DNA from: an uncultured Planctomycetaceae bacterium
GTDB lineage: Bacteria; Planctomycetota; Planctomycetia; Planctomycetales; Planctomycetaceae
Direction: 5' to 3'
Length of the DNA: 54,438 nucleotides
NCBI GenBank assembly: GCA_937916515.1
Contig: CALFSX010000076.1
Coordinates: 1 to 54,438 of the forward strand
In this document: positions 4,963 to 51,899 of the stretch, piece by piece
Position numbering within the stretch: position 1 is the stretch's first letter
How the letters are laid out: every line of letters starts with the position of its first letter
Notes under the pieces: generated by a model
Told to the model about the DNA's origin: nothing
Database searches by the model: none
Seen by the model: only the letters and a program-made list of their open reading frames with translations
Program-made: the position numbers and the translations under genes

Positions 4963-5001
4963 CAGGCTCGTGTACGTTGGCAGGGCAGGGATGCGGGCGA
5001 A

Positions 5002-5943: not shown

Positions 5944-6342
5944 TGGATGGCCTTTAAGAAAATCGATTCGCGATCCCTGCCATGGGGCTGATCACGAAGA
6001 ATTGTGGTGGGGAAACTGGCTGGTGACAAACTTGCCGCCAATCCGAAACCGGGCGCCAAACGCCGCAAGTATTCGAATTTTGGAGACTTCAACAACAGCA
6101 ATGCTACTGCAGGACTTTCATGGATGCCACAAACCTGCCAAGTTCGGTGATGACTTGGTTGGGCATCCTGGAATAGAATGCCAAATGTTACCGGCAGTTC
6201 AGCGAACTGACCTGGTTGCCACGCCCGGAGCATGTTTCATTTGCCGCCATTTTTTGATCTGGCGCGAAATCAAGCTTTGTAAAATTAGAGTGTGGGAAGA
6301 ATTCTCTGCGAAGCGTAAATCCACTTTTTAGACTTCAGGGCC
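5944..6342. other. Divergent intergenic region, no gene seen
   Basis: About 400 nt between the minus-strand DUF6807 gene and the plus-strand AsmA-like gene, so promoters of both must lie here. Short open frames on both strands have no recognisable domain and no good start context. A weak TAAAAT box near 6280 could serve the rightward gene. Nothing else was identified. Confidence 0.4.
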
Positions 6343-7743
6343 ATGGATACGGAAAAAACGGACAATCCCAGGACTCGACCGCCAGCCGTTCCCAGGTGGA
6401 GACGGGCGTTTGTGGCGTCGTCTGTGCTGGGCGGGATGCTGTTTTCCGGGACCGTGATTCTGCCCATTGCGGTCATGAAATCCACGTATCGCGACAGCGT
6501 GTTGAATGATCGGTTGGAGAAATTCGGGCTGACTGCCACGTCAGGAGCCGGGGCGGGCAGTTGGTTTACACCCATAGAATATGAAAACGTCAGCATTTCT
6601 GACGAATCGGGGCGCGTTCAACTAACCGTGAAAGCGGTTCGGACGTCGCAGTCGGCGTTTGGGTTTCTGGCAAACGGTGGAGATTTGGGAAAAATCACCA
6701 TTGTGCAGCCTTCGCTCACGGTGACTCTGGATGAAAACGGGAACCTGCCTCTGAACGTTATTCAGGAATCCGAACAGGCCGCCAAGCCTGACGTGCAGTT
6801 CGAAATTCAGAATGCCGCACTTGTTTTGAAGTCTGACTATCGCGAATTGCCGTACATCGATCTGGCGGACGTCGATATCGAAGGATCGGTTGAAACGACG
6901 GAAGCCGGGCGTTGGCTAATAATCAACCCGGTTCAGATTTTTGATCATGAACCACTGTCTGAATCTCATACGGAGCAGAATCTGGCGTTGATTGCTCCCG
7001 TTTTGTCGCAATCGACGGCGTTGTCCGGCCAAGTTTCGGTTCGGCTGGAATCAATGGCGGTCCGGTTGGACGCTGATCCGGTTTCGCCATTTCCGATTCG
7101 TGGTACGGCCGTGTTTCATGAAGTTAATGCGCAGCTGAAGAAGCAGTGGGCTTCAGAAATCAGCCGCATGCTGGGGCAGATCGCCGGACAAAGTGTGCCG
7201 AATCGACTGCAGATTGCCAGAGATTCCGCTGTCGCGTTCAGTGTGGATGCGCTGGGGATCCATCACAATGGTTTAGTGTTTTTGCTGCCCGACATGGCTG
7301 CTCGAATGCGTATTGAATCGTCCGGAGTTGTCGGTTTGGACGAAACTCTTGATCTTGCCCTGGCGTTGCAGTTTGCGCCTGCTTCCCCAACTGGTGGCTT
7401 GATGTCGATGTTGTCAAAAGTGGTCCGCAATCCATTCCAGTTGCAGATTAAGGGAACGGTGGCTGAGCCTAAGCTGATCACACCTCCCGGCTTTTCGTTA
7501 GTCGATCAGATGGCGCTAAGTGCTGATCCCGAAGGTTTCACTCCGGAGCCGCCTCCGGTTTCTGATGCCGTCATGAATTTGATCGGAGACGTGTCTTCGT
7601 CACCACCTGGAACGCCGCCTGCGGACTTGTCGGGGGGGATTTTGGGACTGATTCGGTCGATTCAGAAAGCTCGTGAAGATGCTCCGCCCCGTGAAAAGCC
7701 AGTTCGACGGAAAAAGCTTCGTAAGGGCGACTTGCCGGAATAG
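6343..7743 (+). CDS. AsmA-like single-span membrane protein
   Basis: 466 aa. A proline/arginine-rich cytoplasmic leader (residues 1-24) precedes one membrane span at about 25-47 (SSVLGGMLFSGTVILPIAV). The rest is a long periplasmic region rich in beta strands, with repeated phrases such as YENVSISDESGRVQL and LGKITIVQPSLTVTL. That pattern is typical of AsmA/DUF748-type proteins, which form elongated lipid-transport or envelope-bridging structures. The C-terminal 60 residues are proline-rich and then basic (RRKKLRKGD). No catalytic motif is seen. It stands alone on the plus strand, about 450 nt before the polysaccharide export genes. The envelope role is inferred from architecture only. Confidence 0.55.
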   Translation: MDTEKTDNPRTRPPAVPRWRRAFVASSVLGGMLFSGTVILPIAVMKSTYRDSVLNDRLEKFGLTATSGAGAGSWFTPIEYENVSISDESGRVQLTVKAVRTSQSAFGFLANGGDLGKITIVQPSLTVTLDENGNLPLNVIQESEQAAKPDVQFEIQNAALVLKSDYRELPYIDLADVDIEGSVETTEAGRWLIINPVQIFDHEPLSESHTEQNLALIAPVLSQSTALSGQVSVRLESMAVRLDADPVSPFPIRGTAVFHEVNAQLKKQWASEISRMLGQIAGQSVPNRLQIARDSAVAFSVDALGIHHNGLVFLLPDMAARMRIESSGVVGLDETLDLALALQFAPASPTGGLMSMLSKVVRNPFQLQIKGTVAEPKLITPPGFSLVDQMALSADPEGFTPEPPPVSDAVMNLIGDVSSSPPGTPPADLSGGILGLIRSIQKAREDAPPREKPVRRKKLRKGDLPE

Positions 7744-8193
7744 TTGCGGCTGCCCAGTGCTTAATGGTTCGTTTGCCTGTGGTGGGAATGCAAGCGTGGC
7801 ATAGTTGTTGCCTGTTACTGCCGCTGTTCTTGACGTTGTCTTCTCGGAATCAGGCTGTTGCCGTGTCGGTTCTCGGAAGTTTGCATCGCGTTCTGCAGAT
7901 ATTGCCGCTTGGCTGAAGCGGTGAAGCATGTTTTGCTCCTTTGCGTCGTGCTGGATGCGTGATTCGTCTTGACCCGTTTTCGTGAATTCAAATAGAACGT
8001 CAACAATGCCGCCGATCTCAAGGCCGCATCACTCCAAATACTCCTCTCAACAATTGCTTCCCGTCTCAATTGGGCATCATTGCCTTCCCATCCTCTCTCA
8101 CTACATTTGATCCGTGTTCACAATGGCTTCTGTGCTGTCCATTAATGGCAGAAGTATCGGTGTGGCTACGTGTCTGAATGGGCTTACTTCCAG
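7744..8193 (+). promoter_or_regulatory. Intergenic region upstream of the polysaccharide export genes
   Basis: No convincing gene. A perfect 6-bp hairpin CCGCTT/AAGCGG (7905-7921) could mark the end of the AsmA-like transcript, though it lacks a following T-run. A candidate sigma-70 promoter TTGACC (7969-7974) and TAGAAC (7993-7998), 18-nt spacer, points toward the export operon, leaving a leader of about 190 nt. Both calls are by eye and weak. Confidence 0.3.
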
Positions 8194-9300
8194 ATGACCA
8201 ATCAAAACTCTGGATCCAAATTTCTCCGCGTCAGCGCACAACTGCTGCTGGTGCTGGTGATTTCCGGGTGTCAGACATCCAGAAATTATTATCGCGCTGA
8301 ATCGATCCCCAAGGGGCTTGCCGTTATTCCTCAGGCAAATCCTCAGGAAGTTGATTTAACGCGACTTGCAAGCGTGTCTGGAAGCAGCGAAATGATCGGC
8401 CCTGGCGACCTGCTGAATGTCGCGATCGCGGCTGGCCTGGGCAAAGACGATCTTGTGGAAAGAACGGCTCGGGTGGGCAGTGATGGCTTTGCTCCGATAC
8501 CCGGAATTGGTCGAGTCGAACTGGCTGGGAACGAGCCTCAAGGTGCGGAAGCCCTGATTCGCATGGAAGCGGTTAACAAAGGGCTGTACCTGAATCCCAC
8601 TGTAACTGTCTCAGTCGTTCAAAAGAAGATGAACCGTATCCGAGTGATTGGTGCGGTGAAAGAACCTCAGATTTATGAACTTCCGCCAAACGCCAGCGAC
8701 GTTGTTTCTGCCATTGCAGCGGCAGGTGGACTGGCTGATAACGCGGGCGAAAATGTCGAGATTCGCAATCCCAAGCGAGGCGGTTCAGTGCAGCGGCCAT
8801 CGGTTGCTGGAGGTTCCAATTTGCCATATTCCACTGTCAGCGATTCCACTGAGGTCAGTGGCGATGGCATGAATTCCTACAGCATTAACCTGATTTCGGC
8901 GTCAGTGTCGGGAACCAACAGCTACAACATTCAGGATGGTGGCGTAGTGATGGTTGAAAAACGCGATCCGGCTCCGCTGCAGGTTACCGGTTTGGTGAAT
9001 AAGCCGGACACTTACGACTATCCCATCGGCAAGCCGTTAACGGTGCTGGGGGCAATTTCCAAGGCTGGCGGATTAAGCAATCAATTAGCGGACAAGGTGT
9101 TTGTGATACGTCCGTTGGCGAATCCCGGTGATCGCGCCCTAATCGAAGTCAGCCTTCGCAAAGCAAAACGAAATCCGAAGTCAGATCTTGTGCTGGGACC
9201 TGGGGATATTGTTTCTGTTGAGCAAACGGCTGGAACAGTCTTCCTGGAAGCATTGCAGCTAATTCGAGTCGGCATCACGGGTTCGGCTGGAATCTTTTAA
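8194..9300 (+). CDS. Polysaccharide export lipoprotein (Wza/SLBB family)
   Basis: Outer-membrane export channel subunit of the Wza type. The start is taken at ATG 8194 (an in-frame GTG lies at 8170) because this gives a clean lipoprotein signal: hydrophobic QLLLVLVISGC with the lipobox Cys at residue 26. The protein is 368 aa. The poly_export domain starts near GPGDLLNVAI, and two SLBB repeats follow, around RIRVIGAVKEPQIYEL and LQVTGLVNKPDTYDYP. The spacing and size match the family. The tyrosine autokinase gene follows 134 nt downstream, the usual partner. It probably guides surface polysaccharide across the outer membrane. Confidence 0.9.
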   Translation: MTNQNSGSKFLRVSAQLLLVLVISGCQTSRNYYRAESIPKGLAVIPQANPQEVDLTRLASVSGSSEMIGPGDLLNVAIAAGLGKDDLVERTARVGSDGFAPIPGIGRVELAGNEPQGAEALIRMEAVNKGLYLNPTVTVSVVQKKMNRIRVIGAVKEPQIYELPPNASDVVSAIAAAGGLADNAGENVEIRNPKRGGSVQRPSVAGGSNLPYSTVSDSTEVSGDGMNSYSINLISASVSGTNSYNIQDGGVVMVEKRDPAPLQVTGLVNKPDTYDYPIGKPLTVLGAISKAGGLSNQLADKVFVIRPLANPGDRALIEVSLRKAKRNPKSDLVLGPGDIVSVEQTAGTVFLEALQLIRVGITGSAGIF

Positions 9301-9434
9301 CAAAGCGGTGAGTCGGGCCAATGGAGCTGACGTTCGGAAACGTTCCGTTGTCAGATCTGGAAACCTGACTCAATGCGAACAGTTTGATTCAGTAAGAACT
9401 TTAACCTGATAAACGCGGCAGGAAGCCGAGCTTT

Positions 9435-11762
9435 ATGACATCTCCTCAAGCTAACATGACAGGACTTGAAGCTGCAGGGCAGGACGCTTTGGCAACCACG
9501 TTGCATTCAGTGGCTCGCTTTATGCGTACGGTACGCCTGCGCAGCGGTATTCTGTTGGCGTGTCTGGTGGTTTCCGGAATCATGGGAGCCGCTTACTACT
9601 CAACGGCTCCACGAATCTATCAGTCGTCGGCTTCGTTGTACGTTGTGAAAAAGGACAGCGTCACAGAAGAGCGGGTTCAGGGTGCCAGTGATTCGGCTCG
9701 CGACATGCCCACGTTTCGCAAGTTAATGTCGTGCGAGGCTGTTATGCAGAGGGCACTCTCGATTCTTCCCGAACGCTTTAAGGGTGGATTTGAAGGCTTG
9801 TCAGAAGCAGAAGCCGTTATGATGATCCAGGCCTCTTTGTCTGTGTCGTCGGAATTCAATACCAAGGTCCTGGATCTTAAGTATCGTTCTCGAGATCCCA
9901 AGGTTGCCGCAGCCGTGCTGACAGCCGTGCTGGCCGCCTATCAGGGATATATGACCGACGTTAGCAGAGATTCGTCGGATCAAAATCATGAACGGTTGCG
10001 TGAGACGCTTGAAGAAATCAAAACAGAACTGGAAACGAAGAAGAACTATCGAAATCAGCTGTTTGCTTCCGCCCCGGACCTGATGCGAGGCCGTAACACG
10101 ATTGTCAATATGGCGGAAGAAAACGTTAAGTTGCTGACTGACCGATATTCTGTGGCACAACAGGAAACCGCTGAGGCTCGAGCCAGCGTTGAAGCGTTGA
10201 TGGAAGCGATTCGCAATAACGAAGACATCACTCGCTTCGCCGATGAAGTTGGTTTGCAGATGCTGGAACAGTCCGTTGGAATCGGCGGGCGAAATTCAAT
10301 TTACGCCGGGCGAGCTGAAGAAGATCTGATTCGGCTGAAGACAGAATTGGACGTGGCGCTTCGGAAATTCGGCCCCAACAATCCGATCATCGTGGATCTG
10401 CAGGAACAGATTCGCATGAAGGAAACGTCAATCCGACAAGCTCCGCTGCGAGAAATCGAAACAGCTCGCAAGCTAAGTCAGGAATATCTTCAGCCCGCAT
10501 TGCTGGAAAGTTTTATGCAGCGTTACAAAAAGGCGTTGCAGGCAGAACAGGCGTTGCTGACTGAAGTGCAACGCGGAAAAGCTCACGCATCTCAACAGAC
10601 AATGACTCTGGGGCAGATCATCGAACTTAGCAAGGAAATTGATCGACTCGATACCAACTATGCGATCATTGACGATCAGATGAGAAACATCGACACCAAT
10701 CGAAATGCTTCTATTCTGACTGAAATTTCGGCTCCTCCCCGCATCCCGATTAAGCCTGTTTCGCCACGGCTGGTGGTGGTTGGTTTTCTGTCAATGTTCT
10801 TTGGGACAGTTGCAGGGCTCGGCATCATCTGGGTGCTGGATATTATGGACGATCGCTTCCGAACTCCGGAAGAATTGAAGATGCATTTGAACACTCAGAT
10901 TCTGACGATGGTTCCGGCGATGGAACAACTTGAAGGCCCCGGGTTTGATGCCGTAATGTGCAACGCCCGGCCCAACAGTACGGAAGCAGAATCGTTCCGA
11001 AGTTTGCGAACGAACCTGGATTTTGCTCCCGGAGAAACTGGTCGAATTGTCTGTACCAGCACAGAGCCCGGTGACGGAAAGACAACTGTTTCGTCCAATA
11101 TGGCTGTCGCGTTTGCTCAGTCAGGCCGTCGCACGTTGATTATTGATGCGGACATGCGTCGTCCTGGTTTGTCGACGTTGCTGGATCTTCGAGATGATCG
11201 CGGACTGTCTGTGATTCTGCGATCGACCGATGATTTGGATACTTCAATTGTGGCAAATCTCCGCGAATCGATGGTGAGCGGTTTGGATGTAATTTCCAGC
11301 GGGCCTCGTCCGGTCAATCCGGCGGAACTGCTTTCCGGAGAACGTTTTGCGAATCTGCTGGCGTGGGCGGAAACTCGTTACGATCAGATTATCGTGGATG
11401 CTCCACCAGTGCTGGCCGTCAGTGATCCCTTGATTGTTGCTCGCATGGTTGACGGTGTCGTGCTGGTGGTTCGACCGGACAAAGATCGCCGTCGCATGGT
11501 TATTCGAGCCGCCGAGGCACTGGCCAGCCTGAAGTGCAATTTGTTGGGCATTGTTGTGAATCACTTGAGCGGTAGCGATGCGGGTGGCTACGGTTATGGT
11601 TACGGCTACGGTTATGGCTATACGGAAAACGAAGACGGTCGGAATCAGGCAACAGACCATTCCGACATGCATGATGCCGCTGTTAGTTTGTCGATGATTG
11701 GGGCTGCTAAGTCAGCCTCAAAGATTCCGGATTCGCAAGTGTCAGGCAGGAAGGCCGCGTAG
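9435..11762 (+). CDS. Polysaccharide co-polymerase / bacterial tyrosine autokinase (Wzc type)
   Basis: 775 aa inner-membrane protein that controls polysaccharide chain length and export by cycles of tyrosine autophosphorylation. Two membrane spans (about 35-60 and 435-458) flank a periplasmic region with long coiled coils (about 170-350), as in Wzz/Wzc proteins; the second span follows the proline-rich PPRIPIKPVSPR. The cytoplasmic BY-kinase domain has Walker A GDGKTT near residue 546, Walker A' LIIDADMRRP and Walker B IIVDAPP. The tail has six Gly-Tyr pairs in a row (about 718-729), the autophosphorylation cluster. Both kinase and co-polymerase parts are in one chain, as in Proteobacteria. 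It precedes the Wzy-like gene. Confidence 0.92.
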   Translation: MTSPQANMTGLEAAGQDALATTLHSVARFMRTVRLRSGILLACLVVSGIMGAAYYSTAPRIYQSSASLYVVKKDSVTEERVQGASDSARDMPTFRKLMSCEAVMQRALSILPERFKGGFEGLSEAEAVMMIQASLSVSSEFNTKVLDLKYRSRDPKVAAAVLTAVLAAYQGYMTDVSRDSSDQNHERLRETLEEIKTELETKKNYRNQLFASAPDLMRGRNTIVNMAEENVKLLTDRYSVAQQETAEARASVEALMEAIRNNEDITRFADEVGLQMLEQSVGIGGRNSIYAGRAEEDLIRLKTELDVALRKFGPNNPIIVDLQEQIRMKETSIRQAPLREIETARKLSQEYLQPALLESFMQRYKKALQAEQALLTEVQRGKAHASQQTMTLGQIIELSKEIDRLDTNYAIIDDQMRNIDTNRNASILTEISAPPRIPIKPVSPRLVVVGFLSMFFGTVAGLGIIWVLDIMDDRFRTPEELKMHLNTQILTMVPAMEQLEGPGFDAVMCNARPNSTEAESFRSLRTNLDFAPGETGRIVCTSTEPGDGKTTVSSNMAVAFAQSGRRTLIIDADMRRPGLSTLLDLRDDRGLSVILRSTDDLDTSIVANLRESMVSGLDVISSGPRPVNPAELLSGERFANLLAWAETRYDQIIVDAPPVLAVSDPLIVARMVDGVVLVVRPDKDRRRMVIRAAEALASLKCNLLGIVVNHLSGSDAGGYGYGYGYGYGYTENEDGRNQATDHSDMHDAAVSLSMIGAAKSASKIPDSQVSGRKAA
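11586..11621 (+). repeat. In-frame GGY-TAY hexanucleotide repeat (Gly-Tyr x6)
   Basis: Six consecutive GGY TAY codon pairs encode alternating Gly-Tyr in the C-terminal tail of the tyrosine kinase. Third positions vary between C and T, so the array is imperfect at the DNA level but perfect at the protein level, implying selection for the tyrosine cluster. Slippage could still change the number of phosphorylation sites. Confidence 0.85.
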
Positions 11763-11787
11763 CCGCGTTGTTGCAGGGAGCAGCTTT

Positions 11788-14670
11788 GTGTCGCACTTGA
11801 TCATGTCAGAAACAGAAATCGATTCAGGCTCTGGTTCGCTTAGCAAAGTTTTGCTGAAGCTTGTGGACTGCCTGATCGCCGCTCTGGTTTTTGTTCTGCC
11901 ATTTATAATGGGGGGGCGAGAAGCCTGGGGGCATTGGTTTTTGATTTCGACGGCATTGTTGCTGGGCGTTGCCTGGGCGATTTACGCTGCGGTTAGTGGA
12001 GCTCGCTATTCGTTTTCGTTTTTGGAAGTCTTCTTTCTGGCTGGCCTTGCTGTCGTCTGGTTTCAGATTCAACTGCAATCGGTTGATGTGCTGCAGCAGT
12101 TTTCAACGGAATACACTCGCCTGCTGCCTGCCTGGTCGGCCACTCAACCGGGGCAACCTGCGGACAGCCACTGGTTAACGCTAAGCCTGACTCCCAATGA
12201 AACTCGACACGCGCTCTGGATGTTTGTGGCTTACGGCGTGATTGGTCTGGTGCTGTTTCAACGTGTGCGAGACCTGGCCGACTGTCACCGACTTTTGAAG
12301 TGGGTTGGTTTGGTTGGTGTTGCCATGACGGGCTTTGGCCTGCTGCAGTGGGCGACTTCGAACGGTCGGTTTTTCTGGTTCTACCAGCATCCGTTTACAG
12401 AACCGACGCTGCACCTGAAAGGGGCCTTTACTAACCGAAACCACTTTGCTCAGTTCCTGGCGTTGTCTATGGGACCATTGCTGTGGTGGCTGTTTGCCAG
12501 TTTGAAACAATACATGCACGGCTCCACCAATGCGGTGAATTCGGAAGCATCTGCCAGTCTCGGGTTTGCCGCTAAACCTGGTAATCCCGAACGCAGAAAG
12601 AAACGTAAGCGGTCACGTACTGGTGGCAGTTCTAATCGGATGGCTGTTGATTCCAGACAGTCTTTTAGTCAGGTTGTATCTTTTTCTGTGTTGGCACTAT
12701 TAAGCGCAGTGGCGGTTGTGGTGTTGGCGGTGATGCTGTCTCTTTCTCGCGGTGGCATGATCGCGGCGGCTGTATCGGGCATTATTGCTGTGGTGGGTTT
12801 ATGGCGTGGATTTAAAGTTGGTGGAGCAGCGGTTGGTCTTGTGATTGGCGGCGGCTTTCTGTTTTTTACGATGCTTTCATTTGTTGATCAGGAAGAAGTT
12901 CAGACAAAGGTTGAGCAGATACTTTCAACCGACGCGGACAAGATTGACACTGGTGGAAACCGACGAGCAATCTGGGCGGCGGACGCGAAAGTTGTTGAAA
13001 GATTTCCGCTGCTGGGCACCGGCATTGGCAGTCATCGCGACGTTTACGTGATGTACATGGACGATTATGCAAATCACGCGATGGCCGAATTAACTCACGC
13101 AGAAAGCAGCTTTGTGCAGATTGCGTTGGAAGCCGGTTTGATCGGTTTTGGTTTGTTGGCCGTTTCGCTGTTGCTGTTGCTGGCCAGACTTGCGATGGGC
13201 TATTTTCGATCACAAAGTGACGCGGGACGAGCATGTGTGGTGGCCGTGTTTGCGAGCTCCGTGGCCGGAATTCTGCACGCCATTGCCGACTTCATTTGGT
13301 ATGTGCCCGCGATTGTGGTTGTGAGTCTTGTGTTGGTTGTTGTGGGGTTGAAAGCTGCAAAGGCCAATTTCGGGACAGCCGGTGCTCGACAGGGAATCTG
13401 GTTCCCAAGAATTGGCTGGGCGATTGGTGGTGGATTCTGCATTCTGGGGCTGGCGACCGTGCAGCCGGAACTGCTGGCGCGAGTTCAGGGTGAGAAGCAT
13501 TGGTATGCGTCGCTACGGACTGCTCTTGCTGTTCAGTACGACGATTCCGACGGCCTTGGTGATCTGCAGTCAGGCGATCAGATTTCAATCAGTGAATCGA
13601 AGCCACGACTGACCGAGCAGGAACGGGCAGCCATTGAAGCGGATAGACTGGTTCGAATGGAGGCTGCTCAAAAACGCTTTCTGGAAGAACGCATCGGTCA
13701 TCTTGCCGCATCTCTAAGAGCCTGTCCTGATCAGCATCGAGTTCAGTTGGCTCTTGCAGAACAGTTGTTGAAACTGTTCGACGTGTTGCAACTGCGAGGC
13801 GATAATCGTATGCCGTTGAGCATGATTAGAGACGCCGCGCTGGCGTCTGGATTCAGCACTGCGGAAGAGCTTCATGCCTGGTCTTCGAGGGCTTTTGGTA
13901 AACGAATTCAGCTTGTGTTGCTGGCTGATAAGCTGGCTCGACAATCGCTGGCTGCATGTCCGGTTCAGGGTTACGCCTACCTGACGTTGGCGGAGACTAA
14001 CTTTTTGTTGGACCCGGCAGATTCCATGCATCAGGCGTTGGTTGATCAGGCGATGTTGGTTCGTGGGCATGATCCTCAGGTTCGCTTCATCGCTGGTCGA
14101 GAAGCTTCGGTCAACGGTGACGAAGCGGCAGCACTTGAACTGTGGGGATCGGTCTTTCATTCCAATCAGCTGTTTCGCATGAACGTTGTGGAGTTGCTGG
14201 CGCGGCGCGTTCCCGTGGAATTCTTCCTGAAACACTTTCAGCCGAATGCGATTGAATTGCGAGACGTGTTGGCGGTGTACGAAGCTCTGGATCGTCGGCG
14301 AGACATCGCTGTCACTTTAAACGAGCTTTGCATTGCAATTCCACGTGATCTTGGCCTGCTTGATGATGAAGACGAAAAGCTGAAGTACATGATGTTGGCG
14401 TACACGTCGGCAAGGCGGCTTGAGAATCTTGATCTGGCGGTTTCATTGCTGACAAAGGCTGTCGAAGACTTTCCGTTTGTATTTGCCCCGCGATATCAGT
14501 TGGGGATTACATTGGTTGAGCTTGAACGGCCGACCGAGGCATTGGAATGCCTGGAATGGTGCTATGAGCAGGATCCTGGGAATATCAACGTTCCCAAATG
14601 GATTCGCCTGGCAGCAAAGCAACTAAGAGAAGCTGAGACGGAATCGTCAGGTCGGCTGACTCAGCTGTAG
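11788..14670 (+). CDS. O-antigen ligase/polymerase-like (Wzy family) membrane protein with TPR tail
   Basis: Multi-span inner-membrane protein that likely polymerises or ligates repeat units of a surface polysaccharide. The GTG at 11788 has a GGGAG ribosome-binding site 7 nt upstream (11776-11780), better than the ATG at 11803; the frame is open further upstream but overlaps the kinase gene. Around ten to twelve spans lie in the first ~600 residues, interrupted by a basic loop (ERRKKRKRSRTGG). The Wzy_C signature region holds SLSRGGMIAA and later LLGTGIGSH with HAESSFVQIALEAG. The last ~350 residues are soluble and helical with TPR-like pairs (APRYQLGITLVELERPTEAL). At about 960 aa it is about twice the usual length because of this tail. 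Confidence 0.85.
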   Translation: MSHLIMSETEIDSGSGSLSKVLLKLVDCLIAALVFVLPFIMGGREAWGHWFLISTALLLGVAWAIYAAVSGARYSFSFLEVFFLAGLAVVWFQIQLQSVDVLQQFSTEYTRLLPAWSATQPGQPADSHWLTLSLTPNETRHALWMFVAYGVIGLVLFQRVRDLADCHRLLKWVGLVGVAMTGFGLLQWATSNGRFFWFYQHPFTEPTLHLKGAFTNRNHFAQFLALSMGPLLWWLFASLKQYMHGSTNAVNSEASASLGFAAKPGNPERRKKRKRSRTGGSSNRMAVDSRQSFSQVVSFSVLALLSAVAVVVLAVMLSLSRGGMIAAAVSGIIAVVGLWRGFKVGGAAVGLVIGGGFLFFTMLSFVDQEEVQTKVEQILSTDADKIDTGGNRRAIWAADAKVVERFPLLGTGIGSHRDVYVMYMDDYANHAMAELTHAESSFVQIALEAGLIGFGLLAVSLLLLLARLAMGYFRSQSDAGRACVVAVFASSVAGILHAIADFIWYVPAIVVVSLVLVVVGLKAAKANFGTAGARQGIWFPRIGWAIGGGFCILGLATVQPELLARVQGEKHWYASLRTALAVQYDDSDGLGDLQSGDQISISESKPRLTEQERAAIEADRLVRMEAAQKRFLEERIGHLAASLRACPDQHRVQLALAEQLLKLFDVLQLRGDNRMPLSMIRDAALASGFSTAEELHAWSSRAFGKRIQLVLLADKLARQSLAACPVQGYAYLTLAETNFLLDPADSMHQALVDQAMLVRGHDPQVRFIAGREASVNGDEAAALELWGSVFHSNQLFRMNVVELLARRVPVEFFLKHFQPNAIELRDVLAVYEALDRRRDIAVTLNELCIAIPRDLGLLDDEDEKLKYMMLAYTSARRLENLDLAVSLLTKAVEDFPFVFAPRYQLGITLVELERPTEALECLEWCYEQDPGNINVPKWIRLAAKQLREAETESSGRLTQL

Positions 14671-26240: not shown

Positions 26241-27230
26241 CTACAGCGATTTTGTGAGGTCTTTTTCGGATGCGGACAGGACTTGTACGGGGCGGGAATT
26301 CTGTCGGCTGGTCGATTCGATTTCCAGTTTGAATGCGCAATCTCGACCGTTGTCTTTGCTGCGATACAAACACATATCGGCCAATTCGATCAGATCTTCA
26401 GCCCGATCGAATTCGCTGATGCTATGTACCACCACAGCTCCAATTGACAACGAAAGTGGCGGCAGTGCAACAGCCGTTCTTGCGAAATTGGATTTGATGC
26501 CGTCCAGAATTCGAGCGATTGGGATATCGATGTCGCCTGGCGTGCATCCACTGCAAATTGCGGCAAATTCGTCACCGCCATATCTGGCCAGTACATCGTA
26601 TGAACGCAGTTGTGTGCGAATTTGATTGGCGATGGAATGCAGAGCAACATCGCCGACACAGTGGCCGTAAATATCGTTGACTTCTTTGAACTTATCGACA
26701 TCCAGCAGGATAACGGCCATGGAATGCTGGTCGCGACTTGCTCGACCGATTTCTTCCACCAGTCGACGTTCGAATATCTGTCGATTGGGCAGCGACGTGA
26801 CAGTATCAGTCATTGCGTCGGAGAGCGACTTTCGTACGACCTGCCAGCTTACAAAGACATCATCGTCCGAAACAAGAGCGCTAATGCCGTCTTCGCATTC
26901 GACAGCCGTGCAGGTAGTGGGAATTGTTCTGAGTTTTGTGGCTCCGGTTGAGGCGGCGTCGGATGGGGAAATTTTCCATTGCAACGCGGCTTCGGCAGGC
27001 ATTTTCTCCCATCGTTTGCGTTCGACCAGGTTGTCGGCATTCAAGCGGCGGAGGATCAATTCCGTCTCAACAATGCCGATCAGTTGTCCTTCGCTCTCAA
27101 CAAGAATGTGAGACACTTTTGAAGTGTCAATTCGTTTCACAACGTCCCTGAGGCATGTATCCGCAGGCACCATACACTCATGGGCTGTACCGTTGGGCGA
27201 CGGTGATAGTTGTGTGGAATGGTATTTCAC
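26241..27230 (-). CDS. Diguanylate cyclase (GGDEF) with N-terminal CBS-like region
   Basis: 329 aa, soluble, makes c-di-GMP from two GTP. Residues about 15-135 look like a CBS-type sensory module (DVVKRIDTSKVSHILVE, QLIGIVETELILRRL). The catalytic domain follows: DTVTSLPNRQIFERRL, DVDKFKEVNDIYGH, then the intact active site GGDEF at 218-222. The inhibitory I-site RxxD is present (RSYD, 209-212), so product feedback is expected. It lies 61 nt downstream of the HD-GYP regulator on the same strand, placing synthesis and breakdown of c-di-GMP in one transcript. It is the only undamaged gene of this signalling locus. Confidence 0.92.
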   Translation of the reverse strand: MKYHSTQLSPSPNGTAHECMVPADTCLRDVVKRIDTSKVSHILVESEGQLIGIVETELILRRLNADNLVERKRWEKMPAEAALQWKISPSDAASTGATKLRTIPTTCTAVECEDGISALVSDDDVFVSWQVVRKSLSDAMTDTVTSLPNRQIFERRLVEEIGRASRDQHSMAVILLDVDKFKEVNDIYGHCVGDVALHSIANQIRTQLRSYDVLARYGGDEFAAICSGCTPGDIDIPIARILDGIKSNFARTAVALPPLSLSIGAVVVHSISEFDRAEDLIELADMCLYRSKDNGRDCAFKLEIESTSRQNSRPVQVLSASEKDLTKSL

Positions 27231-27291: not shown

Positions 27292-28248
27292 TCACGGTGT
27301 TCTGGGGAGTGAGTCTGCAAGAGCAACCTGGATTCCCACGATTTCTTCTTTGCGTCGCAGAAATGCATCCAGCACAACTGGATCGAATTGTGTCCCGCGG
27401 CCTTGCTCAAGAAGATCGAAGCAGTGACTTAGCGGGAACGCGTCTTTGTAGTATCTTTTGCAGCTAAGAGCGTCGAAAACGTCGGCGACTGCTGTGATGC
27501 GGCCTTCCAGTGGAATGTCTTCGCCTGCCACGCCACTTGGGTATCCGTCTCCATCCCAGCGTTCGTGATGGGACAGTGCAATTCTGGCTGCCAGATGAAG
27601 CAACGGCGTTGAGGGTTCTTCTGTTTGCGGGCTTTGAGTGTCAGAGAGTTCACCGTTGGGTGTCCACCGGCGATCGTCCTGTCGGTCCAGAACACTTTTC
27701 CCGATTGCACAGTGTTGCTGAACAACGGCGAATTCTTCCGGCGTTAGCTTGCCTTGTTTTCGCAGGATCGAATCCGGAATTCCGATCTTTCCAACATCGT
27801 GAAGCTGAGCGGCAAGTTCCAGCAGATGAGCTTCGTTGGGAGACAAGCCAAGTTCTTCGCCGATCAGTCCTGCGTATCGGCCTACTCTTGCAACATGTTG
27901 GCCGGTTACGTCGTCGTGAAAGTCGGCAGCCCTGGCAAGGCAGTGTACGACCTGTAACCTTGAGGCGACAATTTCTTCAGTTCGTCTCTTAACGGTTTGT
28001 TCAAGTTGTTTTGAGTACTCTCGGATTTGATCGTGGCAGGCTTTCATCTGCAGGGCATTGCGTACGCGTGGGATCAGCTCTGCGCGGTCAACGGGCTTTG
28101 TCAGAAAGTCGGTCGCTCCCAGCTGCAGAGCTTCCGGCTTTGTTTCGCGATCAACAGAAGCCGTCAGAACCAGAACGGGGACATGTTTCAGATGGGCGGT
28201 TGCCCGTATTGCTTCCAGAAGTTCCAGTCCACTGATGTGTGGCATCAT
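27292..28248 (-). pseudogene. HD-GYP response regulator, 3' part (frameshifted gene)
   Basis: 318 codons holding the second half of a receiver domain (MMPHISGLELLEAIR, VLTASVDRE, the KP motif at 51-52) and a complete HD-GYP phosphodiesterase domain: HDVGKIGIPD at about 150-159, HHERWDGDGYPSG near 228-239, and ADVFDALSCKRYYKD. HD-GYP enzymes degrade c-di-GMP. An insert of about 25 residues (TPNGELSDTQSPQTEEP) lies between the catalytic helices. The phosphorylated Asp should come three residues before MMP and is outside this frame; a 1-nt deletion near 28311-28325 separates it from the first half. The frame starts at ATGATG overlapping the upstream TGA, so a truncated but catalytically complete protein could be made by reinitiation. 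Confidence 0.85.
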
Positions 28249-28628
28249 GATGTCAAGAAGTATGACGTCTGGATTGGATGTCCGAATTTTTGCAAGTGCT
28301 TCACGTGGGTCGGTGATGTCCGTAAATCGGTAAACCCTACGTCCTGAAGTACTTTTCGAACCAGTTTGATGTTGATGGCTTCGTCGTCGATAACCATGAC
28401 ATGACCTGATTCGACTTCCACTTCGCCAAGTTTCGGCGGTCGGAGTTCCTGCTGCTTCTCCACGCCGAACATCTCCGAGATCTCCGCCAGGATATCTCGT
28501 TTTAGCTGAGTATTGTTGGTGAGGTTGGTCATGTGTTCAGGGCATTCGTGAGGGAGGAGGGTGATGACAAATGTCGATTCGCGTGCAGGGCATGATTCGA
28601 ATTGAAGTTTTCGAATCTTTGCTTTCAA
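28245..28628 (-). pseudogene. HD-GYP response regulator, 5' part (receiver N-terminus)
   Basis: 127 codons; Met33 (position 28532) may be the true start. It carries the receiver start VMVIDDEAINIKLVRKVLQDVGFTDLRT with the acidic pair DD, then runs out of frame. In the other frame the same DNA reads ITDPREALAKIRTSNPDVILLD, exactly the continuation expected, so one nucleotide is missing near 28320 (the DNA reads CGG-AC-ATC where CGG-ACN-ATC is expected). Joined, the gene would encode about 440 aa (REC plus HD-GYP). It is divergent from the TonB receptor gene. Confidence 0.83.
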
Positions 28629-28948
28629 CAGACCAATGACAATGTCAGCCCAATCTTACGCTAGCTCATGTTTTCAAAATGCAACTGGAATTGCCTACCC
28701 ATTGGTGCGGAGTTGGTGGGAGTTCCCCCGTGCATTTTGCTTATTCTGGTCAATCGGCTTTAAGTGTGCGGTCCCCACAATACTTTCATGCGGACTCATA
28801 TGGCCACAACAATCGTCGATGGTGACACGCCTCTGGTTTTTCTGCCTTGTCAAACGCATTTGTACTTGCGGAGCGGACGCTTTAGTTTCCGACGATACCG
28901 GGTAGCGGGCATGCAAATTCAGGATGACATTTGTGGCGAGAGTACAGG
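28629..28948. other. Divergent intergenic region, no gene seen
   Basis: About 320 nt between the HD-GYP regulator and the TonB receptor genes. It must hold both promoters, but no convincing box, palindrome or small gene was identified. Confidence 0.4.
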
Positions 28949-29875
28949 ATGGACTCAATCGGTATTCGTACAATTATCAATCGAATCTGCGCGTTCGTTA
29001 CGACATGTTTGCTATTACTTGATGGAGTTGCAGACGCGCAGCAGAAGACCACGGCAACTCAACAGATGGCGTGGGGGAAATCCGGCCCGCCGGTTCCAGC
29101 CGTTCCGCTGATGTCGTCGGAAGCGAACTACTACCCGTCTCAGGCTGAATTGCTGTCTGCGGAAGACGAAGACGCTGAACTTGATGAAGACGAAGATCTG
29201 GGAGACCTTGACAAGCTTCTGGAACTCTCCGAAAACGATATCGGAAGCTTGTCGCAGGTTCAGGTGGCTCGGCTCTCTATCGCTCCGTCTTTGGATACAG
29301 TTGTATCGACCGTTGAGCGTAAAGAAAGCACGGTGGGGCGAACGCCCGCCGCAGTCTTCGTTATTACTCGTGAAATGATTCGGCGATCTGGTGCACGCCA
29401 TGTTCCTGAAGTGCTGCGGATGGCACCTGGTGTTCAGGTCGCTCAGATCGATGCCAACAAATGGGCCGTTTCGATTCGAGGATTCAACGGTCGCTTTGCT
29501 AATAAGCTGCTGGTCCAGATTGACGGCCGAAGTGTATACAACCCGTTGTTTGGCGGTGTGTTCTGGGACGCTCAGGGAGTTCTGCTGGAAGACGTTGAAC
29601 GGATCGAAGTGGTTCGCGGCCCCGGCGGAACTGTTTGGGGCGCGAACGCTGTAAACGGCGTAGTGAATATTGTGACTCGCAAAGCTGCCGACACACACGG
29701 TTCGTTTGCTGAGGCTGGCGGCGGCAATCTTGAACGGTCGTTTGGTGCGTTCCGCCAGGGGGGCAATGTCGGGAAGGATGCGGACCTCCGCGTTTTCGGG
29801 CAATGGGCAGAACGCGGGGCGTTTTCGTCGCCAACGGACCATGACGACTGGCAGAATGGTCGTTTCGGTGCTTGA
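28949..29875 (+). pseudogene. TonB-dependent receptor, 5' part (ends at in-frame TGA)
   Basis: From ATG 28949, preceded by GAGAG, the protein has a signal peptide (about 10-29, ending VADAQ), an acidic stretch (EDEDAELDEDEDLGDLDKL) and a full plug domain: TPAAVFVITREMIRRSGAR, VSIRGFNGRFANKLLVQIDG, RIEVVRGPGGTVWGANAVNG. These are typical of TonB-dependent outer-membrane receptors. The frame ends at TGA 29873-29875 after NGRFGA, and the same frame then continues with barrel sequence LDWKTSCEDSHTIQGDFYNG, so this is a nonsense change, most simply CGA (Arg) to TGA. The truncated product has a plug but almost no barrel and should not insert. Confidence 0.9.
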
Positions 29876-31156
29876 CTGGACTGGAAGACCAGTTGCGAAG
29901 ACAGCCACACTATTCAGGGGGATTTTTACAACGGTTCGTCAGGGACGCTTAGTGTGTTTCCCACAGCAACGACGCCTTTTGCGGAACTCACAAAGTACAA
30001 TGAGAGAATCAGCGGCGGCAATATCATGTACCGCTGGAATCATAAGTTGTCTGACGATTCCGACTGGCAGATTCAAACGTATTATGAACAGACACAACGC
30101 CGCTTTGTTCCGACAGGGTCCTATTATGAACGTCATACAATTGATCTGGATTTTCAGCATCGGTTTCGCTGGCATGAAAATCATGAGTTCATTTGGGGGG
30201 GCTGTTATCGAGCTTTCTGGGATGAATTTACAGCTCAGCCGTATTTCCTTTCTGCCGCTCACGAACGCGATCAATACGGAATTGTTAGCGCTTTTGCTCA
30301 GGATACGATTACTCTTCGTGAAGACTATCTGTCGCTCACAATCGGTACAAAACTGCTTCACAACGATTTTACCGGTGGCGAGGTGCAACCGTCTGCCCGG
30401 TTGTTGTGGACTCCTACAGATCGCATCTCAAGCTGGTTTGCGGCATCGCGAGCGGTTCGTACTGCAACGCGGTTAACGAACGATGGGCGAGTTGTTTTGC
30501 CGGGTGGCCCTGCCGGTCCGTTTCCAGTTGTCTACCCTGTTATTCAAGGGAGTTCGCAGCTGGAATCAGAAGACGTCTTCGCTCTGGAAGCAGGATTTCG
30601 TCACCAGCCTACGGCACGGTTTTCATGGGATCTAGCCGCTTTCTGGAATCGGTACGAAGATCTGGTTGGCCTTGGTTCAGGGGGAGGAATTTCGCTTGCG
30701 CCGGAAGGTGCTATCTCTGTGATTCCATTTGCCAATTCCGGATCGGCTCAGACGTATGGCGTTGAGTTTGCCTCAAATTTTCAAGTGAACGACAAGTGGT
30801 CTCTGCAGGGGAACTACACTTTTGTGAAACTCAATTTTGATGGTTCAGTTTTGGGCTCGGCAAACGATGCTCCCTTGAATCAGTTTTATCTTCAGTCATC
30901 TCATCAGCTTAGTAAGCAGGTTGAGCTGGACTTGATTTGGCGTTACATCGATTCGCTGTCCGCGCAGTCTGTCTCGGCTTATTCGTCATTCAATGTGCGT
31001 TTGGGGTGGCACCCCAGAGAAGCCGTTGAAGTATACCTGATGGGGACAAATCTGTTCTCGTCGCCTCATTCCGAATACGGCAACGACCCGTTTGCCGGAA
31101 CGCAATCCACAAAAGTACCACCGGGCGTTTTGGGGGGAGTCGCAGTGCGATTTTAG
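29876..31156 (+). pseudogene. TonB-dependent receptor, 3' part (beta-barrel)
   Basis: The same reading frame as the 5' part, open from the TGA to a stop at 31156. It holds the barrel: alternating strands such as WQIQTYYEQTQRR, FQHRFRWHENHEFIWGG, SARLLWTPTDRISSW, GSAQTYGVEFASNFQ, and a C-terminal strand GGVAVRF ending in Phe, the usual outer-membrane insertion signal. Without readthrough it would have no signal peptide. The whole receptor would be about 735 aa, normal for the family. The only likely internal start is GTG 29951. Confidence 0.88.
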
Positions 31157-31270
31157 GCGTGCGTGCCTGCGCAATTTATGGACATCGCCTCTGTTCTGTC
31201 TGATTCAATAATTCCCACCTTCTCTTAAATCGCTCGTTTTTATCGTTGCCGTCTCGCTGCAATCTTACTT

Positions 31271-31642
31271 ATGAATTCGTCTTGCCAAACAACTCAAGTG
31301 CCATGCCGGGGATCATGTTTCATGATCATCCTGCTGTTCGCATGCGCGTTTGGTAGGGAGGTTTGTTCAACGGTCTTTGCTCAGCAATACGGCACGGTCG
31401 CAAACCCTCGACAGGGCGAAGTTGTGACCGTCGTTGACCGAACGGCTGAATACAATGTGAAAGCCGTGTATCTGTACAATTTTGGTCGCTATGTGGAGTG
31501 GCCTGCCTTTGAGAGCATGTCCACAAACGCGTTCCATATTGGTGTGTTTGGTCAGTCCAACTTACTTCCTCCTTTGCAAAAACTGGCCAGGTACAAGAAG
31601 GTGGTTGATAAACGTACAGGGCAGAACTTCCTATTGAACTAA
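31271..31642 (+). pseudogene. YfiR/DUF4154 periplasmic protein, 5' part (frameshifted)
   Basis: Signal peptide (about 17-38, MIILLFACAFG), then the DUF4154 start EYNVKAVYLYNFGRYVEWP and FHIGVFGQSNLLPPL. YfiR is the periplasmic repressor that holds the membrane sensor YfiN inactive in Pseudomonas. The frame breaks at 31619-31621: it reads ACA GGG CAG and stops soon after, whereas the next frame reads AELPIELTEFTSVTECRPCH, the expected continuation. One nucleotide appears to be missing in a short G run, which is also a typical place for a sequencing indel. Confidence 0.87.
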
Positions 31643-31950
31643 CTGAGTTCACATCAGTTACGGAGTGCCGCCCGTGTCACATTCTGTTTATTGGTGAAGG
31701 TGTAAGTTCGGAGCGTGTCGCTGAAATTCGAACGCAGCTTAAGGATGTCCCAGTGTTGCTGGTGGGGGAATCTCCGGATTTTGCCACCAGTGGTGGAACA
31801 GCCGTGTTTCGCCTGGTGGACGGCGGTGTTCGTTTTGATCTGAATCTGGATCAGGCAAACCTTAAAAAACTAAAGCTTGATGCGAAACTGTTAAAAGCGG
31901 CCAATCAAATTGTGAGCGACCGTGCTGACAATTCAGTAACGCAAAAATAA
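31621..31950 (+). pseudogene. YfiR/DUF4154 periplasmic protein, 3' part
   Basis: Out-of-frame continuation of the preceding fragment. It reads AELPIELTEFTSV, CHILFIGEGVSSERV, VPVLLVGESPDFA and the family C-terminus GGVRFDLNLDQANLKKLKL. Joined, the protein is about 225 aa, normal for DUF4154. The next gene, a membrane histidine kinase, starts 3 nt after the stop, so the two were one operon. Confidence 0.85.
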
Positions 31951-31953
31951 AAC

Positions 31954-33513
31954 GTGAAGTGCAAATCCATGTTTACCAACATTAAAGACCGGCTGTCGAA
32001 TTCATCCATTCGCTTCAAGCTGATTGCGATGATGTCTATGTCCTGCCTTGTTGGTGTGATTCTGTGTTGTTGTGGGTTCATTTTTAATGACATGCACACA
32101 CTACGCAACGCGAAAGCCCGGCAGATTACAGCTCAGGCGGAAATGCTGGCCTTTAACAGTTCAGCCGTGATTGCCTTCATGCAGCAGGAAGCCGGTGAAG
32201 ATCTTTTGTCTGCATTTAGTGCGGAGCCAACTGTAGAGCTGGCGGTGCTGTATTCGGCAGAGGGGGATGTGATTGCTCGCTATCCCAGGACTTTCAATCA
32301 ACCATTGCCAGATGGCAGTTCGTTACAGGATGGCACTCGCCTGAATTCGACAGGTCACTTGTCTCACGTGACTGCCGTGTCGGATGCGGGTGACCGAGTC
32401 GGTTCGCTGTACGTTGTTTCCAACATGAAGGACGTCGATAATAAGATTCAGGATTATCTGAAAATAGCCGTGCTTATGTCGGCTGTGTCAATGGGCGTTG
32501 CCTTCCTGTTTTCTGTGCTTGTGCAAGGGTTTCTGTCGCGCCCGGTTGTCCAGTTGGCAGACGTGGCTGTAAAAATTCGCGAGCAGGAAGACTATTCCGT
32601 CAGAGTGAGACGCAATGGCAGTGATGAGTTGGCGACACTGTATTCTGCCTTTAATGCAATGCTGGCTCAGATTGAACAGTCCAAAAATCAACTGCGAATG
32701 GCTAACGACCATCTTGAAGATCGAGTTGTCGAACGGACAGCTCAGCTTCAGCAGGAAATTGAAGAGCGGGAAAAAACTCAGGAGCAGCTGATTGCCGCCA
32801 AGGAAGAAGCAGAAAACGCCAACGTTGCAAAAAGTATGTTTCTGGCAAACATGAGCCACGAGATTCGTACACCAATGAATGCGATTCTGGGCTTCACTGA
32901 TTTGCTGCGACGGCAGGGAGAAAGTGTTGATCCGGTAGAACGTGAAGACTATCTGCAGACGATTCACAAGAGTGGTCAACATCTGCTGGGCCTGATCAAC
33001 GATATTCTGGACCTGTCCAAGATTGAAGCAAATCGAATGGAGCTCGAGTTTGTGGCAGAATCTCCGCATCAAATTGTCGCAGAAGCGATTTCTGTCATGC
33101 GAGTTCCCGCATTGCAGAAAGGGCTGACTCTGGAATATGCCTGGAACGGACCGGTTCCTGCGACCGTTCAAACAGATCCTTCGCGCCTACGGCAACTGTT
33201 GATCAACCTTATTGGCAATGCAATCAAGTTTACTCGCCACGGAGGTGTGCGGGTGAGTGTTGAATTGGTTGATCTGGAGGCCATTCCATCGTTGCGCATG
33301 GAAGTTATCGATACAGGTATTGGTATTCCTGAGCAGAAGCTGGAAGAAATCTTCAAGCCGTTTTCTCAGGCAGACGTCAGCACAACGCGCGAATTTGGTG
33401 GCACCGGACTGGGGCTGACCATCAGCCGCCGAATTGCCGAAGCGTTTGGAAGTTTCCAGCGAACCGGGGCAGGGCAGCGTGTTCACGGTTGTTGTGCCCG
33501 TCGGCCAGCTTGA
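31954..33513 (+). pseudogene. CHASE8-HAMP hybrid histidine kinase, 5' part (frameshifted)
   Basis: GTG start at 31954. Two spans (about 25-47 and 168-190) enclose a CHASE8-like periplasmic domain (ITAQAEMLAFNSSAVIAFM, AVLYSAEGDVIARYP), the sensor type found in YfiN. A HAMP region (SRPVVQLADVAVKIREQE), a coiled coil, and a histidine-kinase core follow: phospho-acceptor His302 in MSHEIRTPMN, N-box LINLIGNAIKF, DTGIGIPE and FGGTGLGL. After RRIAEAFG the frame is lost at about 33444-33450; 24 out-of-frame codons follow before the stop. The ATP-binding core is nearly complete, but the receiver and HPt are cut off. Confidence 0.9.
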
Positions 33514-34414
33514 GCAGCTTGATCTTAGGTCTACTGCTCCCATCGCTGACATTGTTCAAATGTTGCCACAGCAAATACCGGATTCACCATTGCCGCGCAT
33601 AGACAATGCCTCAATCCTGTTGGTGGAAGACGGGCAGACGAACCGTCGGATGATGAAGCTGATTCTACGCGCTCACAACGTGACCGTGGTTGAAGCGGAA
33701 AACGGCGAGATTGGAGTTGAACTGGCAATCAATGGAAACTTTGACGTGATCCTTATGGACATGCAGATGCCCGTTCAGGATGGCTATTCTGCAACTCGTG
33801 AACTACGTGGCAAGGGGCTTCAGATACCCGTGATCGCACTAACGGCCCATGCAATGAAAGGTGACCGTGAAAAGTGCATTGCCGCAGGATGTACGGACTA
33901 TTTAACCAAGCCAATCAATGAAGAACGGCTGATTCTTGCTCTCAGCAAATACCTGACGGTAACGTCGCCGAGAAAAGGCGGCGAAACGCCTGATCCATCC
34001 ACAACTGTTGTGGCTGATCTTCAGGAAGCACAGCCGACGGAAACTTTCCGAGCTGCGGAACTGCAAGAGCCCGTGGTGTCTGCATTGCCATACGAAGACG
34101 CTGACTATCGTGAAATCATCGACGACTTCCGTCGCGAGCTGGCTCAAAAGCTGGCGCAAATGAATGACTGTTTCGAAGTTCGAGATTTTGAAGGCATGGC
34201 CGGATTGGCTCACTGGTTGAAAGGCACTGCCGGAACGGCAGGCTTTGACCATTTCACCATTCCCGCGATTCGCCTGGAACGCGGTGCAAAGTCGAAAAGC
34301 ATCGATGCTGTCCATGATTCGTTTCTTGTTGTCATATCCCTGGCAGAAAAAATTCGGCCCGAAGTCGAAACAATTCCGCTTGCACCGCCCAGGCCCGTTC
34401 AGCAGCCTGGTTGA
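33434..34414 (+). pseudogene. Hybrid histidine kinase, 3' part (receiver and HPt)
   Basis: The shifted frame resumes the kinase end (RLEVSSEPGQGSVFTVVVP), then a receiver domain with ILLVEDGQTNRRMM, the phospho-acceptor Asp in VILMDMQMP and the KP motif in YLTKPINEERL, and a C-terminal HPt domain with the phospho-His in AHWLKGTAGTAGF. The expected join is AFGGSLEVSS, which would need 11 more nucleotides lying between two GTTTGG copies. Joined, the kinase would be about 815 aa. As it stands the fragment has no good start. Confidence 0.85.
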
Positions 34415-50675: not shown

Positions 50676-51371
50676 TCACGGCATCTTTCTGATCGACTGC
50701 GACAGGCAATGCATCTTGTCGCTTTGTCCGGAATTGTTGTCAACCATTCGATTTTCACTGCAAGACGCCATTATTAACGCCGGTCGCAGGCGTTGATCGG
50801 TGACATCAATGGTGGTGACACCGCCAACTTGATGAATCAATCGATCCCCAACCGCGATGATGCGGATGTCGTTCCACTTCCAGTCTGTCAGTTCTTCATT
50901 GCTACCGACATTGTCGGTTTGCTTTACAGCAGCGTTCGTGTCAATCTCAACCTTCCGCCCACGCGTCATAATCTTGCCTCGTCTTTCGTACTTTTCGCCG
51001 TACAACATGCCGAAGAATTTTGCGCTCGGGTGCAGATCCATCTGGTAGCCCATCAACGCAAAATTAGGCTCGTCGATAAATTGGCTGCGGCACTGCACGC
51101 CTGAATTATTCTCCTTGAATCGAACCTTCGCCGTGAATTCAAAGTCGGCGACATCGCCACCCTGCCAGATCAGAAATGTGTTGGCGTCGATCTTCCGTTC
51201 GCGAGTCGTTCTCTCCGACGATGGAGCCGTCCACAACGCTCCCCAAATTATCAAGCCCTTTCCAGCCGGACAGGTCATTGCCGTTGAACAGCGTTTAAAA
51301 ATCATCAGCGGATGCAATCGGTAGTGAGATCAATGCAATGAAAGCCGTTGCCAGGAAGTTTCTATTCATTT
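50676..51371 (-). pseudogene. Decayed DUF1080 (3-keto-disaccharide hydrolase-like) gene
   Basis: The minus strand begins with a good signal peptide (MNRNFLATAFIALISLPIAS, ATG at about 51369), then hits TAA right after ADDF. The same frame goes on as TLFNGNDLSGWKGLDNL, the DUF1080 start, so AAA to TAA is likely. Further on an extra A breaks the frame at about 51207 (VDGSIVGE, then TTRERKIDANTFLIW in the next frame). The core follows: GGDVADFEFTAKVRFKENNSG and MGYQMDLHPSAKFFGMLY. After RPALIMA the family C-terminus is replaced by unrelated sequence. At least two lesions and a truncated end make this a pseudogene. It lies downstream of a sulfatase remnant. Confidence 0.85.
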
Positions 51372-51449
51372 TACAGATTCTCTTTTGCGTGGAATTTGTC
51401 GTCTGTTGACGTAAGTGAAGCGCGGGCCGGTTAAAGATCAGTGAAGGGC

Positions 51450-51770
51450 TTACTCTCGCGAATACTCATCTTTGTATTTCAATGCTTTTTCGCAGAGTCC
51501 TTTCAGGGTGTCGCTATACTTTGGGTCTTCAGCCACATTGACAAACTCAGCCGGGGCGACTTCGCGTTCGTAAAGCAGCTCCACCCCATCTTGTAGTAGT
51601 TGGCGTAGATGTAGCGATCGTCGCGGACACCGAACCATCTCGGCAGCTTCGCATTGCCGGAATGGTGTTCGCAGTAGAAATCGGTCCGCCAAGTGTTGGG
51701 GATTCACCATCAATAACGGGCTTCAGCGAAACGGGTACCTCCCCGAGGCGGTCACTATACACACCACGGA
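51450..51770 (-). pseudogene. Sulfatase C-terminal remnant
   Basis: Three reading frames together spell a sulfatase C-terminus: EVPVSLKPVIDGESP, then NTWRTDFYCEHHSGNAKLP with FGVRDDRYIYANYYK, then GVELLYEREVAPAEFVNVAEDP. This matches the usual order (W-R-x-D-F, V-R-x-D-R-Y-I-Y, E-L-L-Y, x-E-x-x-N-x-A). Two frameshifts interrupt it, and nothing of the catalytic N-terminal domain is present. It ends 79 nt before the DUF1080 pseudogene, in line with an old operon. Confidence 0.75.
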
Positions 51771-51899
51771 TTCGTCGAGCTAGGTGCCTTTGGTACCAAC
51801 AAGTTACGTCAAACGCGTGAAATCGTTTTCTACCCTTGGAACCCGGTTTCCGCCATTCCGAAGCCGCCAAAGTCGCCCCAAAAACCGCGTCGTGATCGG

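Follow-up and report, generated by a model that had tools for sequence, protein, structure and literature searches.

Two described bacterial signalling systems come closest to the subject of this account, a locus of four broken genes on contig CALFSX010000076.1 (C76) of an uncultured member of the Planctomycetaceae; by the window we mean the whole of the stretch analysed, all 54,438 bases of that contig, which belongs to a draft genome of 8.33 Mb (343 contigs, 99.3% complete). The first is YfiBNR of Pseudomonas aeruginosa. In the available parts of the papers on it (PMC2837407; PMC4655355), this system comprises an outer-membrane partner, the periplasmic protein YfiR, a membrane sensor that has a periplasmic domain and a HAMP domain, and a cyclic di-GMP output. 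The locus shares these features: YfiR (DUF4154) was recognized by Pfam in two pieces lying in two frames, and the sensor has CHASE8 and HAMP domains. CHASE8 is also the periplasmic domain of YfiN, the YfiBNR sensor. The second system is HmrABCX of Caulobacter crescentus, with which the locus has in common, as far as the available text of the paper goes (PMC11481889), a hybrid kinase with HAMP and periplasmic domains, an Hpt step and a proposed effect on cyclic di-GMP.

In the window, the genes for a receiver–HD-GYP protein (REC-HD-GYP), a TonB-dependent receptor, YfiR and a CHASE8 hybrid histidine kinase each carry one disabling lesion, as judged by translation in all frames and comparison with relatives. 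It seems probable (we would put it at roughly 0.78) that the locus is the recent remains of one sensory module, in which a single hit silenced the pathway and selection on the rest then lapsed. A first-pass annotation, made from the sequence alone, had claimed that four of the five genes at 26.2–34.4 kb carried one disabling change each, and both the translation and the open relatives bear this out. The features are as follows (L, G and C labels denote loci, genomes and contigs).

26241–27230, reverse strand: intact GGDEF gene, 329 aa, in an open frame (Pfam GGDEF, 6e-39)
27292–28248, reverse strand: HD-GYP C-terminal fragment, comprising the second half of the receiver and the HD-GYP domain (Pfam HD_5, HD and partial Response_reg)
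28245–28628, reverse strand: HD-GYP N-terminal fragment in another frame, comprising the start of the receiver (frame translation; matches in L108 and L147)
28326–28331, reverse strand: lesion 1, a frame change in the receiver domain, net −1 (from relatives; position accurate to a few codons)
28931–29875, forward strand: TonB-dependent receptor, N-terminal fragment with the plug (Pfam Plug, 7e-22)
29873–29875, forward strand: lesion 2, an in-frame TGA (translation and relatives)
29876–31156, forward strand: TonB-dependent receptor, C-terminal fragment with the beta barrel (Pfam TonB_dep_Rec, 5e-28 for 29954–31156)
31271–31642, forward strand: YfiR N-terminal fragment (Pfam DUF4154 positions 1–51)
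31612–31633, forward strand: lesion 3, a frame change for which net +17 bases is the preferred reading (31616–31632; alignment with 14 relatives)
31633–31950, forward strand: YfiR C-terminal fragment (Pfam DUF4154 positions 51–142 at 31624–31902)
31954–33513, forward strand: hybrid kinase N-terminal fragment, with CHASE8, HAMP, HisKA and most of HATPase (Pfam)
33446–33450, forward strand: lesion 4, a net deletion of 11 bases close to where the ATPase domain ends (alignment to L147 and L107)
33446–34414, forward strand: hybrid kinase C-terminal fragment, with the ATPase end, receiver and Hpt (Pfam Response_reg 4e-28 and Hpt 3e-8, for 33434–34414)

Lesions in the four genes

The TonB receptor gives the simplest case: its frame reopens past the TGA and runs to 31156, so that plug and barrel share one frame, and full-length relatives align without a gap across the site. 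In the kinase, the matches of most relatives to the N-terminal part stop at 33450, and the C-terminal part resumes with 11 bases missing relative to L147 and L107 (a Fuerstiella metagenome-assembled genome is among the best kinase matches, at 56% identity over part of the kinase only). For YfiR, the window has 17 extra bases between a conserved basic position and the next Ile; they are absent from all 14 YfiR relatives, which were BLASTP picks at E 1e-3, with duplicates removed, from a reference set of 1,964 open reading frames (ORFs) taken from loci of other genomes. Because none of the 14 has extra residues there, we prefer to see the lesion as 17 bases gained on balance over the one-base loss proposed in the first-pass annotation, the resulting frame being the same; no second copy of the 17-mer was found within the window at up to three mismatches. 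The other kinds of lesion given in that annotation (a nonsense codon, an 11-nucleotide deletion and a one-nucleotide deletion in the HD-GYP gene) stand, although the short repeats that it placed on either side of the 11-nucleotide deletion are putative.

The HD-GYP gene combines receiver and HD-GYP domain in one protein that is open in L147 and L148 and split over two frames in the window, where the length, counted by eye against L108, fits a net loss of one base. Its N-terminal fragment gave no Pfam hit by itself. The C-terminal fragment is 34–59% identical to relatives, and its first start codon lies beyond the phospho-acceptor Asp. It is conceivable, although we regard it as very unlikely, that some fragments are still used, for example this one, expressed from an internal start as an uncontrolled phosphodiesterase: its 318 residues do keep the HD-GYP domain and most of the conserved residues, but recent decay predicts the same picture. 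Recoding was rejected as the cause of the breaks, since it would require that the breaks, each of a different kind, all arise for this reason at four sites that have nothing in common, and no relative with them was found.

The module in relatives and in the host genome

Intact counterparts were found in relatives. The genes for TonB receptor, YfiR, kinase and HD-GYP protein, all open, lie adjacent to each other on one strand, with the same domains, in L147 (G385, of the same family; 4378–11646) and in L148 (G301, of the same class; 5099–12123), from which adjacency we infer an operon. As the four genes are unbroken and side by side in both of these relatives, the lesions in the window follow the boundaries of a module. 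A more distant set in L104 (G027) has the same order, its kinase being matched only in the sensor and kinase part. The picture was extended by searches for the TonB receptor in 58, 397 and 170 genomes (overlapping sets, the host genome included), which yielded 35 relatives besides the window's own, a 44-residue match in G084 having been excluded. YfiR is close by in 24 of the 35, and a kinase match comes next in at least 16 of those 24; these are hand counts and lower bounds, most loci having only 1.5 kb of flank.

The GGDEF gene is a neighbour that lies outside the module in the relatives examined: of the 11 module loci of relatives compared, none matched it at E 1e-3. Its own paralogues match residues 1–305.

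The same breaks do not recur in relatives. None of the window's lesions was found among the 35 TonB or 14 YfiR relatives (kinase and HD-GYP relatives were checked where the fetched loci contain them), and the two TonB relatives that have a stop (G017 and G122:C10) have it at other sites. Two other loci of the module type, in G017 and G407, are also broken. In G017 (C167; L100 7232–10254), a 79% complete genome, the TonB relative has a stop five codons before its end, and the start of YfiR continues directly into the latter half of an HD-GYP gene. Kinase and receiver are absent, as though a deletion had removed them together with the end of YfiR. In G407 (C632; L269 3631–4270), YfiR has a frame change in a TonB–YfiR–kinase locus. 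The TonB relative at G122:C10 has its stop in mid-gene, with no YfiR match in the 14 kb around it. All three are draft genomes, and some of these broken copies may be assembly errors. Further flags in relatives were dropped: those in start regions (G410 for TonB and YfiR; L129 and L143 for YfiR), the L102 kinase (an end-of-gene flag) and the L154 kinase (on the strand opposite to its TonB gene), and in L269 a stop that separates kinase from receiver was taken for a gene end.

Loss of one of the genes might have been favourable through a change in cyclic di-GMP, the others following. Loss mutations of yfiR in P. aeruginosa are reportedly selected, and the breakage of the G017 and G407 copies would fit as well. 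Strong effects of yfiR loss are described in the available part of one study (PMC2837407). The data, however, do not distinguish between a selected and a neutral first hit, and a rare and patchy module (of 170 genomes of the family, 13 have the TonB relative, the host included) also fits neutral loss, so we consider a favourable loss unlikely.

The patchy distribution could also be taken to mean that the module was acquired horizontally and has never functioned in this host, and in the same-genus genomes no common neighbourhood, matching that of the window, was found in the stretches examined around relatives of the flanking genes (in G005, contigs end within the relatives of the GGDEF and sulfatase genes). 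The GC content of the 26–34 kb region (0.49–0.53 per 2 kb), however, is at most slightly below that of the rest of the window (0.51–0.55), and the best relative of the TonB receptor, at 44% identity, belongs to the same family (G017); such an origin seems to us very unlikely.

Within the host genome, the only YfiR matches are the window pieces, no other YfiR having been found, and the only TonB match is the window receptor. Contig C300 carries an open kinase/HD-GYP pair (HD-GYP 51% identical to that of the window, kinase core 54%, kinase C-terminal part 36%); both genes of this type occur in G003 (L107), and the HD-GYP gene was seen in a stretch of G007 (L108). From the absence of YfiR and TonB matches elsewhere in the genome and from the open C300 pair, the input half of the pathway appears to be gone, with a related output pair remaining.

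Background lesions and the age of the decay

The reference set was also compared with 611 kb of the host genome, the window included, a test that covers only genes with a relative in the set. It allowed 99 genes to be assessed, 10 in the window and 89 outside. Five of the 89 were flagged by the script; on inspection L179 remained doubtful, and the other four appeared ordinary. The L158 flag was dropped because a kinase ends after a complete ATPase domain and is followed by a receiver with its own Met (that these are two genes is not proven), those in L163 and L184 because the stops fall at apparently natural ends, and that at L166:14426 because it was read as an antisense match. Separately, at L166:19128 (on C79), there is a probable frameshift 55 codons into a gene that is 69–80% identical to an open 519-residue ORF of G004; because the stretch ends within this gene, it is not among the 89. 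The first-pass annotation had seen no lesion in the window beyond the locus and a patch at 50.6–51.8 kb; the patch is real (see below), and the rest of the claim was assessed by homology for the 10 window genes, but such an absence probably does not extend to the wider genome, given that probable frameshift (G000:C79:19128).

With all four module genes broken, Fisher's test gives P = 5e-6 against 2/89 and 1.2e-5 against 3/89; if every one of the five raw flags is counted, and of the module lesions just the three detected by the pipeline itself, P = 0.0017. Four hits placed at random would strike each of the four genes once with a probability of about 0.06, so the one-per-gene pattern is only mildly unusual. 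A codon-usage scan for frameshifts (611 kb of the host genome, the window included, and 160 kb of G004) found one of the four known lesions and was not used; it gave 31 events in the host genome and nine in G004, many of them read as false alarms at overlapping genes.

These counts bear on the idea that errors of assembly or sequencing made the breaks, the genes being intact in the cell. The draft state of the genome speaks for it, but errors should scatter genome-wide, and the 89 other genes gave one doubtful case, to which one probable case outside the 89 may be added. Moreover, the lesions comprise a stop, an excess of some 17 bases, a lack of 11 and a single-base change, and the longest homopolymer near any of the four sites is 3. 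Such error is very unlikely.

The decay looks recent, because the fragments show no erosion of conserved residues. Violations of near-invariant columns numbered two of 57 in the TonB N-terminal part (six of 19 relatives having an equal or higher rate), two of 50 in the TonB C-terminal part (21 of 33 relatives), none of 32 in the kinase core (all 111 relatives) and two of 26 in the HD-GYP core (eight of 22 relatives). All of these rates lie within the range of relatives. Bacteria acquire roughly ten base substitutions for every small insertion or deletion; the three such changes in about 6.6 kb would then correspond to some 30 substitutions, or about 0.5% divergence since the pathway was lost, which is an estimate and not a measurement.

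Loss of selection on one pathway, already suggested in the first-pass annotation, fits best, because the four broken genes are the exact members of a module that is open elsewhere; the open GGDEF gene and the kept conserved residues support it too. Several points weigh on the other side. The genome is a draft. The P values were obtained after the fact, for a locus picked for being broken, and the pipeline undercounts, having caught three of the five known broken window genes and missed the HD-GYP gene and the one at 50.8 kb. The HD-GYP gene is divergent from the other three module genes, unlike its counterparts in L147 and L148, which makes co-regulation uncertain. The conserved-column test covered three of the four genes, those for the TonB receptor, the kinase and HD-GYP. 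Finally, the same-genus genomes are distant, and the highest-scoring DNA match that the region has beyond the host genome (72% over 355 bases) is too remote for the age or order of the lesions to be measured.

The second decayed patch lies at 50676–51870 on the reverse strand, where a gene for a 3-keto-disaccharide hydrolase (PF06439) has an in-frame stop and a frame change; adjoining it, in several frames, is what appears from its sequence to be the C-terminal remnant of a sulfatase. Planctomycete-type domains (PSD and PSCyt families) are also present in the window and, together with the Fuerstiella kinase match, indicate a planctomycete. Among neighbouring genes are two whose products we take to be a sulfatase-like and a PSD1-like protein: both have very large sets of paralogues in the genomes of the genus (G000–G007), the former with 134–217 matches per genome, and the latter with 127–162 match segments (part of the candidates having been scored in each case).

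Relation to described systems

If the intact module works as its domains suggest, the outer-membrane TonB receptor would sense a ligand, this would alter the hold of YfiR on the CHASE8 domain, and the kinase would start a His-Asp-His-Asp relay, so that phosphorylation of the receiver would set the hydrolysis of cyclic di-GMP by the HD-GYP domain. In the window, one lesion would have silenced the pathway, and the other genes, no longer selected, would have gathered independent lesions, the neighbouring GGDEF gene staying open. Ligand, signal flow, order of hits and loss of function are all things that we infer.

What the locus offers is a clean snapshot of a whole pathway soon after selection was lost, next to a GGDEF gene that is unbroken. 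Lesions that trace the boundary of a module are independent evidence for a joint function of its four genes. They also draw notice to an intact and directly testable set (TonB receptor, YfiR, CHASE8 kinase and HD-GYP protein), which deserves more attention than its wreck. Limited searches of the open-licence literature in PubMed Central (PMC) found, among the matches listed, no description of the intact module, which is weak evidence of absence. More tentatively, and with more doubt than confidence, we suggest that these four proteins form an undescribed planctomycete surface-sensing module, laid out like YfiBNR but lowering cyclic di-GMP rather than raising it, and that separate lineages (the present one, G017 and G407) have repeatedly inactivated it as a whole.

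HmrABCX, as presented in the available part of its paper, also differs from the locus: HmrC, which is proposed as its sensor partner, is a membrane protein, and the Hpt proteins are separate. That portion of text does not name YfiR, and its single mention of TonB concerns another locus (PMC11481889).

As a case of gene decay, the locus is ordinary. Bacterial pathways often become pseudogenes in just this manner, several genes of common function being lost together after one hit, and there is no essential difference here, where each of four partners has one lesion. YfiBNR is closer in its parts, and the differences are instructive. As far as the available accounts of YfiBNR go, it has YfiB, an OmpA/Pal-like lipoprotein, where the window, L147 and L148 have a TonB receptor (YfiB elsewhere was not searched for); its sensor, YfiN, is a GGDEF cyclase, which is replaced here by kinase, receiver and Hpt domains together with REC-HD-GYP; its output is the synthesis of cyclic di-GMP, which here would be degradation; and in the window all four genes of the module are broken. 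Because cyclase and YfiB are lacking in the gene set, the intact module would not be a member of the YfiBNR system. It may work like one, by analogy with YfiBNR (PMC2837407): YfiR would then relay to a CHASE8 sensor the signal of an outer-membrane protein.

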